DNA of 64,000 nucleotides, taken from assembly GCF_027359575.1 (NCBI RefSeq), contig NZ_CP114784.1, positions 124,001-188,000 on the forward strand, in the 5' to 3' direction. This stretch comes from Prochlorococcus marinus str. MIT 0917 (lineage in GTDB: Bacteria > Cyanobacteriota > Cyanobacteriia > PCC-6307 > Cyanobiaceae). The translations under genes were made by a program, and so were the position numbers. Positions within the stretch are counted from its first letter, which is position 1. Each line of letters opens with the position of its first letter. The notes below the pieces were generated by a model, which was not told the origin of the DNA, did not search any database, and saw only the letters and a list, made by a program, of their open reading frames with translations. Positions 42,949 through 45,968 of this stretch are shown here, piece after piece.

Positions 42949-43707
42949 ATGATAAAGTTGAGGCCTTGGAATAATATCAAAATAAATGACTGTAATGAGC
43001 CTTTAATTTCTATTCCACAATCTATATTTCGTTTAACACCTCATCCTTATATGTCGTTAGGTGCTCCATATTTAACTGGAGCTGATCCATGGGTTTTACG
43101 TAGAGGTGTTTTAAAACGATTAATACGTGCTCAAAAAAAACTTTCCGAAATTAATCCCAAATTGCAATTGGCTTTGTTTGATGCTTGGAGACCTATCTCT
43201 GTCCAAAAATTTATGTTTAATTACACTATTCAAGAAACTTGTAAGTCGAAGGGAGTTGATATTAATGATCTTTCAGTCAATGGAGGTATCAATGATGTAA
43301 TTGAGGAGGTTGGCCGTTTCTGGGCAAAACCATCTTCTGATCCTCTTATGCCGCCTCCGCACAGTACTGGTGCAGCTATTGATTTGACACTTGCTGATAT
43401 AACTGGTAAGGCATTAGATCTTGGTGGGGAAATAGATTTTATTGGACCTGAATCTAGTCCTGACTTTTATAAGAAAGACTCTTTTATGATGCCTGATTCA
43501 AAATATCACGTTTTTCAGGATAGAAGATCTCTATTGTTTTCAGTTATGGAACAGGCTGGTTTTGTTCAACACCCAAACGAATGGTGGCATTTTAGCTATG
43601 GAGATCAATTATGGTCTTGGTTAACGAAGAAAGGTAATGCTATTTATGGGGGTGCATTTGAGGTGAGTAAAGACATTACACTTTCAGAGCCAAGTTTAGT
43701 CACATGA
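42949..43707 (+). CDS. VanX-like D-alanyl-D-alanine dipeptidase (M15D)
   Basis: 252 residues, no signal peptide. LQLALFDAWRPISVQKF carries the conserved Arg81. The zinc ligands His138 and Asp145 are in PPPHSTGAAIDLTL. The catalytic Glu211 and third ligand His214 are in NEWWHFSYGDQ. This is the complete VanX/DdpX active-site set. A cytoplasmic D-Ala-D-Ala dipeptidase would recycle or salvage peptidoglycan precursors; vancomycin resistance is not implied without VanA and VanH. The 3' end overlaps the convergent sulfite reductase gene by 64 bp. Confidence 0.88.
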   Translation: MIKLRPWNNIKINDCNEPLISIPQSIFRLTPHPYMSLGAPYLTGADPWVLRRGVLKRLIRAQKKLSEINPKLQLALFDAWRPISVQKFMFNYTIQETCKSKGVDINDLSVNGGINDVIEEVGRFWAKPSSDPLMPPPHSTGAAIDLTLADITGKALDLGGEIDFIGPESSPDFYKKDSFMMPDSKYHVFQDRRSLLFSVMEQAGFVQHPNEWWHFSYGDQLWSWLTKKGNAIYGGAFEVSKDITLSEPSLVT

Positions 43708-45788
43708 TCTCCAAGACTAGATGATGTTCCAGTATCTTTCCAGCTAAGGAATAAAGGTTCTAATGTCTTCTCTAATTCATTGATAGGCATCTTTTGTAGA
43801 TATGGAGTTGCCAATCTTTGTAAATTAGTGCTACCACCCAGCCATAGTTGGTATTGATTTAGACCACTACCAACAAGAGCTAACTCTGCCATATATGGGC
43901 GAGCACATCCGTTTGGACATCCTGTAACTCTGACTAATATTGATTTATTAATATCTAGGGATTTTAACTGATTGTTTATTCGTTCCAATAGCTCTGGCAA
44001 AAATCTCTCTGCTTCTGTCATTGCAAGTCCACATAATGGAAGAGCTGGGCAAGCCATAGCATGTCTGGCTAATGGTTCTGGACTCTCTGGGTCTGAAAAA
44101 CCTATGTCATCTAGAGCATTCTTTACGCTGGTTTTTTGATAATTACCAATATTACACAAAAGTAAATCTTGGTTGGGAGTTAAACGTATATCCAATGCGA
44201 ATTTTTCAACTATATTTCTTAGCCCTTTCTTTACATTACCAGTAAGCCTACCAGATAATAGTGGTATCCCAACAAACCACAGTTTCTCTGACTGTTGATG
44301 CCAGCCTAAATAATCTTCAAGTATTGCATCCCCTTCGTTTCTTAAGGTCCCAATTCGTTTCCTAAAATATTTCGTTGTTAGCTGTTTCTTAAACCAATCA
44401 ACACCCATGTCATGCAAAACATATTTAAGTCTTGAGTGCCTTCTGGTTTTTCTATCTCCATAATCTCTTTGAAGAGCGAGAATAGATTGAACAAGCTCTA
44501 ATATGTATTTTCCTTCTACAAAACCAATGGGATCTGCTATCCTCGCGAATGTCGTATCTAAGTTGTGCGTTCTACCCATACCTCCTCCTACGTAGACATT
44601 ACACCCTTCTATAGTTCCTTTTGCATTAGTGAACGTCACTAGTCCTATGTCATGAGTAAGAATATCAACAGAATTATCACCTGGTACTGTAGTTGCACAT
44701 TTGAATTTTCTTGGTAAGTAGGTTGCACCATATAAAGGTTCATTTTTGTCCCCACTAAAAACACCTGGATTTTGTTGAAGCTTTCTGGTCCTTTTGACTT
44801 CAGAGGTTGGCTTGATGGCATATTTTATTTCGCCATCAACCCATAAATCAATGTAGGTTTTCTCAGCTTTCTGGGGCGATAAAGCATCGGCAATATCATT
44901 AGCTAATTTTCTCGCAGCAGGATAAGATCCTTTTTCGTAAGGTGCCGCTGGAGCCATTACATTCCTGTTGACGTCTCCACAAGCCGCAAGAGTCGATCCC
45001 ATTGACCTCACAATTGTTCCTATTACTTCTTTTATATTTCCTTTTTTTATTCCATGCATTTGGAAGCATTGACGAGTAGTTGCTCTAAGTGTTTTATTCC
45101 CTAGTCGATCAGAGAGATCATCTAATGCTACAAATAGGGGCCCAGGAACCAAACCAGCTGGATTTCTTAGCCTCAGCATCATTTGCCAATCTTTACCTGT
45201 GCCGCCTCTTTTTCTATGTTCCCGATCATCTTGTTGATAGCTACCATGGAATTTTAAAAGCTGTACTGCGTCGTTCGTAAAGTGATCGCTGTCGTTTATT
45301 AATTCGCTTTGTAAGGGTTCATTTAAGTAATTACTATCAGCTTTAAATTGTTCAAATTTCGCTCTAGGGGAATTATTAGCTATGCATGGCGAAGGGACAG
45401 TCTTTTCTATATCTTCAGCACTTGTACTTACATTGTCCTCGAAATTCATCAGAGCTTCAATAGCTGCATTACTGAATCCAGCATCTTTTAAGTCTTTTTT
45501 TATGTTTTTTGGTGATTCTTTCGAATTATTATTTTTTATAGACTCCAGTTTTATTCCCTTAGGTAAGGATTTGTTGATTTGCTTGGCTTCTTCTTCCCTG
45601 AGCTTTTCATTGAATTTTTGTTGAATAGCTATTTCTGCCGAGCTTATATTCTCTTCTGCTTCTTCTTTAGTGTTACCTATTTTTTTTACTACATCACACG
45701 TTCCAAAAGCATCCCTTAATTTACCCCTCGGTACTGCAACCCTGAGGTAAAAACCTGATCTTCCTGGTATTTGTATAATCTTAGGCAA
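43644..45788 (-). CDS. sir: Ferredoxin-sulfite reductase with a recombinase-like N-terminal extension
   Basis: Reduces sulfite to sulfide with six ferredoxin electrons. The catalytic part starts about residue 140 (FHGSYQQDDREHRKRGGTG at 180 onward). The siroheme/4Fe-4S cysteines are Cys580 and Cys586 (ACPALPLCG) and Cys624 and Cys628 (TGCPNGCARPY). From Met114 the protein is 601 residues, the usual length. Before it, about 113 extra residues begin MPKIIQIPGRSGFYLRVAVP and continue FGTCDVVKKIGNTKEEAEEN. This resembles the N-terminal arm of phage-type tyrosine recombinases, not sulfite reductase. Start is TTG at 45788 for the long form or ATG at 45449 for the normal one. Confidence 0.93.
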   Translation of the reverse strand: MPKIIQIPGRSGFYLRVAVPRGKLRDAFGTCDVVKKIGNTKEEAEENISSAEIAIQQKFNEKLREEEAKQINKSLPKGIKLESIKNNNSKESPKNIKKDLKDAGFSNAAIEALMNFEDNVSTSAEDIEKTVPSPCIANNSPRAKFEQFKADSNYLNEPLQSELINDSDHFTNDAVQLLKFHGSYQQDDREHRKRGGTGKDWQMMLRLRNPAGLVPGPLFVALDDLSDRLGNKTLRATTRQCFQMHGIKKGNIKEVIGTIVRSMGSTLAACGDVNRNVMAPAAPYEKGSYPAARKLANDIADALSPQKAEKTYIDLWVDGEIKYAIKPTSEVKRTRKLQQNPGVFSGDKNEPLYGATYLPRKFKCATTVPGDNSVDILTHDIGLVTFTNAKGTIEGCNVYVGGGMGRTHNLDTTFARIADPIGFVEGKYILELVQSILALQRDYGDRKTRRHSRLKYVLHDMGVDWFKKQLTTKYFRKRIGTLRNEGDAILEDYLGWHQQSEKLWFVGIPLLSGRLTGNVKKGLRNIVEKFALDIRLTPNQDLLLCNIGNYQKTSVKNALDDIGFSDPESPEPLARHAMACPALPLCGLAMTEAERFLPELLERINNQLKSLDINKSILVRVTGCPNGCARPYMAELALVGSGLNQYQLWLGGSTNLQRLATPYLQKMPINELEKTLEPLFLSWKDTGTSSSLGDHVTKLGSESVMSLLTSNAPP

Positions 45789-45789
45789 T

Positions 45790-45813
45790 GGTACCTACAA
45801 CGGTACCTACACT
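45790..45813. repeat. Two-copy 12-bp tandem repeat upstream of sir
   Basis: GGTACCTACAAC at 45790-45801 is followed directly by GGTACCTACACT at 45802-45813, identical in 10 of 12 positions. It lies immediately upstream of the TTG that opens the long sulfite reductase frame and contains two GGTACC palindromes. It might be an operator or part of a recombination junction. Confidence 0.5.
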
Positions 45814-45968
45814 GTATCATTTTTCGTGTTGGTTAGTGCCTATTTGTTCAAATAAAACCATGCGTAAAAAAAGATCTATTAATTGAATATTAAATATTTT
45901 CTAGGACACAGAATGTAGAAGTAATTCAAATTTAGATCTAATCTTGTTACGAACATAAGGAAATTTTT

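Follow-up and report, generated by a model that had tools for sequence, protein, structure and literature searches.

A fused sulfite reductase gene at the sir locus

The window analysed here is a stretch of 64,000 nucleotides from Prochlorococcus marinus str. MIT 0917. On its minus strand lies a sir gene in which a ferredoxin-type sulfite reductase is preceded by a domain of integrase type. The gene, its segments and the elements directly upstream are listed below by their positions in the window.

43644–45788, minus strand: fused gene with a TTG start, encoding in 714 aa an integrase-type arm domain, a linker and a ferredoxin-type sulfite reductase
45786–45788, minus strand: TTG start codon, replaced by GTG in some relatives; no other start-type codon ahead of residue 203 is common to 29 of 29 sequences
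45600–45788, minus strand: arm-type, putatively DNA-binding domain, residues 1–63 (integrase homology, AlphaFold model, dN/dS 0.052)
45438–45497, minus strand: conserved helical segment KDLKDAGFSNAAIEALMNF, residues 98–117 (dN/dS 0.057)
45387–45437, minus strand: fast-evolving segment, the probable fusion junction, residues 118–134 (dN/dS 0.45)
43647–45386, minus strand: sulfite reductase proper, residues 135–714 (NCBIfam matches)
45790–45798, minus strand: copy 2 of the tandem repeat, GTAGGTACC, a proposed operator or arm-type site (no binding data)
45802–45810, minus strand: copy 1 of the tandem repeat, GTAGGTACC, spaced 12 bp from copy 2
45811–45816, minus strand: TACAGT, a -10-like box directly next to repeat copy 1 and inferred to be the promoter

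Sir and a convergent vanX-like gene (42949–43707) overlap at their 3′ ends by 64 bp (43644–43707).

A first-pass annotation, made from the sequence alone, had proposed that the sir frame begins with about 113 codons foreign to sulfite reductase. The foreign N-terminus was confirmed, as the NCBIfam sulfite reductase models span only residues 135–707 of the 714-aa frame. The model NF010029 is met (E 4e-223, 741.8 bits for a cut-off of 457), and TIGR02042, which describes ferredoxin-dependent sulfite reductase, scores slightly below its cut-off of 731.5 (E 1e-217, 723.6 bits). The proposed length held only in part. Non-fused Sir proteins begin about 25 residues ahead of the SPCIAN motif, and the fusion junction probably lies at residues 118–134, where dN/dS peaks; hence the foreign part exceeds 113 residues. 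The first codon was corrected from ATG to TTG, and the in-frame stop reported upstream was confirmed as a TAG located shortly 5′ of the start, within the repeat.

Selection on the extension and choice of start codon

Calculated over 29 full-length sequences, dN/dS amounts to 0.052 in residues 4–63, 0.144 in residues 64–97, 0.057 in residues 98–117, 0.45 in residues 118–134 and 0.075 in Sir. The arm domain is under strong purifying selection, tighter than that acting on Sir itself (0.052 vs 0.075).

The extension could have been an annotation artefact, the true start lying near Met114 and the upstream frame being open by chance. In support of this, the 601 aa counted from Met114, which the first-pass annotation had taken as the normal length of Sir, do match the length of non-fused Sir. 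However, Met114 is missing in 4 of the 29 genomes, the codons upstream of it are under strong purifying selection and no alternative start codon is common to all sequences, so that the artefact is all but excluded. A start at Met114 was rejected in favour of the TTG or GTG at residue 1, found in all 29. Because this codon is the sole shared start-type codon before residue 203, the long form of 714 aa is very probably the product actually made, although no protein data are available.

Distribution and genomic setting

A search with residues 1–138 recovered the extension in 30 of the 41 genomes of the window's genus, including all 17 that are at least 90% complete. Among 201 genomes of the family, Sir matches extend to residue 1 or 2 only in this genus and in the sister lineage AG-404-P15 (G082). 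In the other family genomes they start near residues 120–143, except for a few that reach closer to the N-terminus, in some cases across stop codons. The named records of the fusion are all from Prochlorococcus single cells. The extension is thus not a feature of all Prochlorococcus Sir proteins. Its presence in all of them without a sign of acquisition, or a lack of integrase similarity, would have refuted the first-pass proposal, and neither was found.

Fused and non-fused genomes have the same neighbours, recG, vanX and glyS, and the ancestral order is recG-vanX-sir-glyS. Hence the fusion arose at the original position of sir, on the side facing glyS. The first-pass annotation had left undecided whether the frame is a genuine fusion or the remnant of an integration event. 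A genuine fusion is favoured, because the module is under selection (dN/dS 0.052), fixed across the genus and located at the ancestral locus.

The N-terminus is homologous to the arm domain of tyrosine recombinases

The extension had been likened to the arm of phage-type integrases, of the DUF6538 type. Searches of residues 1–138 against Pfam, PHROGs and NCBIfam gave no significant integrase match, and DUF6538 (PF20172) was not among the Pfam matches; hence an intermediate was needed. In the congeneric genome G005, residues 1–138 gave an extra match in a separate frame, which encodes a tyrosine recombinase of 422 aa (Phage_integrase 1.1e-7, Phage_int_SAM_5 8e-8). Residues 10–60 of this recombinase match DUF6538 at E 1e-4 with 22.3 bits, under the curated cut-off of 27. 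Sir residues 1–63 are 43% identical to its N-terminus over 63 aa (E 3e-11), and a profile-versus-profile comparison (hhalign) of the Sir extension with the integrase N-terminus gave a probability of 99.7. The Sir N-terminus is homologous to the integrase arm domain, the similarity being far beyond chance; the proposed integrase origin therefore held through the G005 recombinase and not by direct profile search. G005 carries both the sir fusion and this integrase, about 43 kb apart.

The basic and glycine positions shared with the integrases include residues invariant in the arm (R10, G12, Y14, P20, L24 and K36); the row of locus L118, mis-framed in the first version of the mixed arm alignment, was omitted thereafter. 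The hhalign alignment pairs Sir residues 1–114 with residues 1–105 of L118-like integrases. Residues 98–117 may thus also derive from the integrase linker, a possibility that is only weakly supported, as pairwise shuffles gave p values of only 0.007–0.2. The fused Sir is not an integrase and carries the integrase arm only, since Pfam found no match to Phage_integrase, the catalytic domain with its R...HxxR...Y motifs, and the remainder of the protein is Sir.

Further integrases with the same arm occur in other genomes of the family. The arm was not found outside this family in a phylum-wide sample of 292 genomes, and searches of viral contigs and GenBank phages returned no relative of either the extension or the G005 integrase. 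No tRNA or Rfam family was detected near the integrases; the window is also without tRNA.

The AlphaFold model of the Sir arm places strands at residues 3–5, 13–18 and 32–38, followed by a long helix at 41–74, with a pLDDT of about 90 across residues 10–65. This predicted beta-beta-beta-alpha order is that expected of an arm domain. Comparison with solved structures gave no confirmation of the fold. Foldseek found nothing significant in PDB or BFVD, a PDB sequence search with the arm profile gave no match, and in VIA-align the arm domain of a P4-like integrase (3rmp_C; Z 3.0, rmsd 3.7, 54 aligned residues) was tied with unrelated chains.

A conserved tandem repeat precedes the sir start codon

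The two GTAGGTACC units sit immediately 5′ of the sir start codon, 12 bp apart. This spacing is invariant in 30 of 30 genomes, and both units are exact in 28 of them; in AG-404-P15 the pair consists of GTTGGTACC twice. The first unit is abutted by TANNNT in all 30 genomes, and by TACAGT in 28. Across the 30 genomes, identity reaches 98% in the repeat pair, compared with 92% in the adjacent coding start and 83% in the upstream DNA. In six genomes, 1–2 extra bases displace the pair relative to the sir frame, which shows that it is conserved as DNA; conservation as protein was rejected on account of this frame offset. The strong conservation could possibly reflect a promoter or translation constraint instead. 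TACAGT is only inferred to be the sir promoter box, in the absence of a mapped transcription start, and a strict scan for the two sigma-70 hexamers gave no match. Even when up to 3 mismatches are tolerated, the genome of the window contains the pair only once, hence any regulation through it would concern sir alone.

The same layout is found in most related integrases

At most of the integrase and fusion loci, a tandem direct repeat with a period of 12–13 bp ends 0–15 nt before the start codon. Usually only 0–4 of 400–500 shuffles match the score of such a repeat; as background, 22 of 9134 equal-sized stretches of the window reach a score of 10. Integrase loci of this arm family in which a pre-start repeat is generally seen are L061, L118, L121, L122, L124, L126, L128–L132, L184, L187, L191, L192 and L195. 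A clear tandem pair is missing in about a third of the related integrases. The copies are near-identical within a locus and the units vary between loci (GGTAGGACC, GGTTGGGAC, GGTCCTGCA, GTTGGAACC, TGTATGACT, TTTGTCAGTCA and others). Of 21 integrase and fusion loci, 13 have TANNNT directly next to the repeats, compared with 4.5 expected. The arm and the DNA repeats of sir were captured together.

Arm identity correlates with repeat similarity across 21 loci (Mantel rho 0.46, p 2e-4). L118, the integrase nearest to the Sir arm (47–56% identical), also has the repeat nearest to that of sir (TGTAGGTAC). The correlation is consistent with the arm domain recognising the repeats as arm-type sites; no binding data exist, and shared descent alone would yield some correlation.

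It could be argued that integrases of resident mobile elements use the sir repeats for landing or control, and would cross-regulate or integrate at sir without any binding by Sir itself. The presence in G005 of both the fusion and an integrase with the same arm about 43 kb away would support this. However, G005 alone in the genus has a full-length close relative, whose start region reads TGGTAGGACCATTTGGTAGGACC-TT-TTG and whose repeat, GGTAGGACC, differs from that of sir, and genomes lacking such an integrase also conserve the sir repeats. We regard this possibility as very unlikely.

Two further features of these loci were observed. A motif TCGACCTG(A/G)A lies about 50–110 nt upstream of the integrase starts in L061, L122, L124, L128 and L130–L133; it is possibly the core of an attachment site, and no tRNA or Rfam family was found at it. 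Truncated integrase frames of 69–253 aa that retain the arm domain occur in L131, L132, L133 and L137, those of L131 and L132 also retaining repeats. Such frames may be intermediates towards fusions, or decaying elements.

A second fusion, to a Rieske oxygenase

The same arm is fused to a Rieske ring-hydroxylating oxygenase in two genomes of another Prochlorococcus genus (L134 and L135). The fused frames are located as follows.

L135:511–1833 (= L193:5311–6636), plus strand: Rieske fusion, with an exact tandem pair before the start in L135
L194:1086–2402, minus strand: Rieske fusion

These proteins match Rieske (PF00355) at about 1e-12 and Ring_hydroxyl_A at about 1e-11; their matches to DUF6538 (E 0.028–0.09) are below the cut-off. 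In L135 the pair is an exact GGTTCTACC repeat with TAGCAT abutting, and in L134 the repeats are diverged and not significant as a pair. At both loci the neighbours, read from the sequences, are what we take to be beta-ketoacyl synthases, short-chain dehydrogenases and acyltransferases.

In a tree of the arm built on 66 columns, in which the deeper forks are unresolved, the Sir arms form one group (88/93) and the Rieske arms another (99/96), and two label changes are needed. The Rieske fusion is a second capture, separate from and independent of the sir fusion. No unfused relatives of the Rieske protein were found at E 1e-30 in 201 family genomes, which is uninformative, as this sample was not shown to include the two known carriers.

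A possible autoregulatory role of the fused sulfite reductase

We cautiously favour, as the best explanation of these data, the domestication of an integrase arm, which would bind to its own tandem site and thereby autoregulate sir. In this scenario, a picocyanobacterial tyrosine recombinase gene would formerly have lain between glyS and sir. A deletion would then have joined the front end of the integrase (promoter box, two arm-type sites, start codon, arm and linker) to sir, whose native start was lost. A domain able to bind DNA would thus be retained in the fused Sir, and the double site matching this domain would overlap the start of both transcription and translation of sir. Sir molecules bound at the tandem GTAGGTACC sites would repress sir, as self-repressing integrases do, and Sir would thereby sense its own abundance, perhaps also its cofactor or oligomeric state. 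The deletion route (after integration), DNA binding, autoregulation and its sign, and metabolic gating are all inferred, without binding, transcript or protein data. Self-repression is, by analogy, the most economical reading, as the fusion keeps the box, the double site, the start and the arm.

Precedents exist for parts of this scheme. Integrase genes with a promoter that overlaps the arm sites are negatively autoregulated, as shown for IntS of KplE1, where the arm site P′1 covers part of the -10 box (PMC2951348); paired 11-bp arm sites were described in mycobacteriophages (PMC3203893). With KplE1 intS the fused gene shares an arm-domain protein and a putative arm site over what is inferred to be its own promoter region, but it encodes a metabolic enzyme, has lost the recombination function and its autoregulation is inferred only. 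With the picocyanobacterial tyrosine recombinases that have a DUF6538-like N-terminus, it shares about 63 N-terminal residues, the pre-start tandem repeats and the -10-like box, but lacks the core-binding and catalytic domains, the rest being sulfite reductase. Like trigger enzymes such as PutA, BirA and NadR, the fused Sir combines a metabolic enzyme with a presumed DNA-binding domain and could act on the expression of its own gene; its module differs in deriving from a recombinase arm and in having arrived with its presumed operator. An earlier description of such an enzyme was not found in the open-licence literature searched and could exist elsewhere.

Alternatively, only the expression signals may have mattered, sir having gained a new promoter and start codon while the arm is a non-regulating passenger kept for stability or solubility. 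This remains possible: the -10-like box, the repeats and the start codon were captured as a single block, and no binding data exist for the arm. However, the arm is more constrained than Sir (dN/dS 0.052 vs 0.075) and shares its basic and glycine positions with the integrases, the double repeat is held at exact spacing, and the same pairing of arm and repeat recurs on the Rieske enzyme. It could also be that the arm confers general DNA binding, making Sir nucleoid-associated, with self-regulation being minor. The plastid sulfite reductase DCP68 is indeed a DNA-binding protein that causes compaction and reduces transcription (PMC4154389), so that a Sir that binds DNA would have a precedent, although by other means. 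Against this, a specific matching double site lies at the gene's own start and nowhere else in the genome (up to 3 mismatches), and no integrase arm is known in the plastid enzyme, which differs from the fused Sir in its DNA compaction. General DNA binding is hence unlikely, and autoregulation of sir through the tandem site remains the preferred reading. This idea can be tested directly, as it involves a short domain and a 21-bp site.

A bolder reading, to which we give rather less credence, is that integrase front ends (promoter box, tandem operator and arm) are portable self-regulation cassettes in marine picocyanobacteria, transferred on at least two occasions to iron-sulfur enzymes (sulfite reductase and a Rieske oxygenase), each of which would repress itself and maybe read its own cofactor state. 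The self-regulation proposed for sir would in itself be a new route from mobile elements into host regulation, in which a DNA-binding domain and its own site move together, instead of a stray promoter. The recurrence on the Rieske enzyme suggests a general mechanism. In the case of sir, the recipient is a core metabolic enzyme, and the fusion has become fixed in a whole genus of an abundant phototroph of the ocean. As dedicated regulators are few in Prochlorococcus, self-regulating enzymes would matter in this organism.
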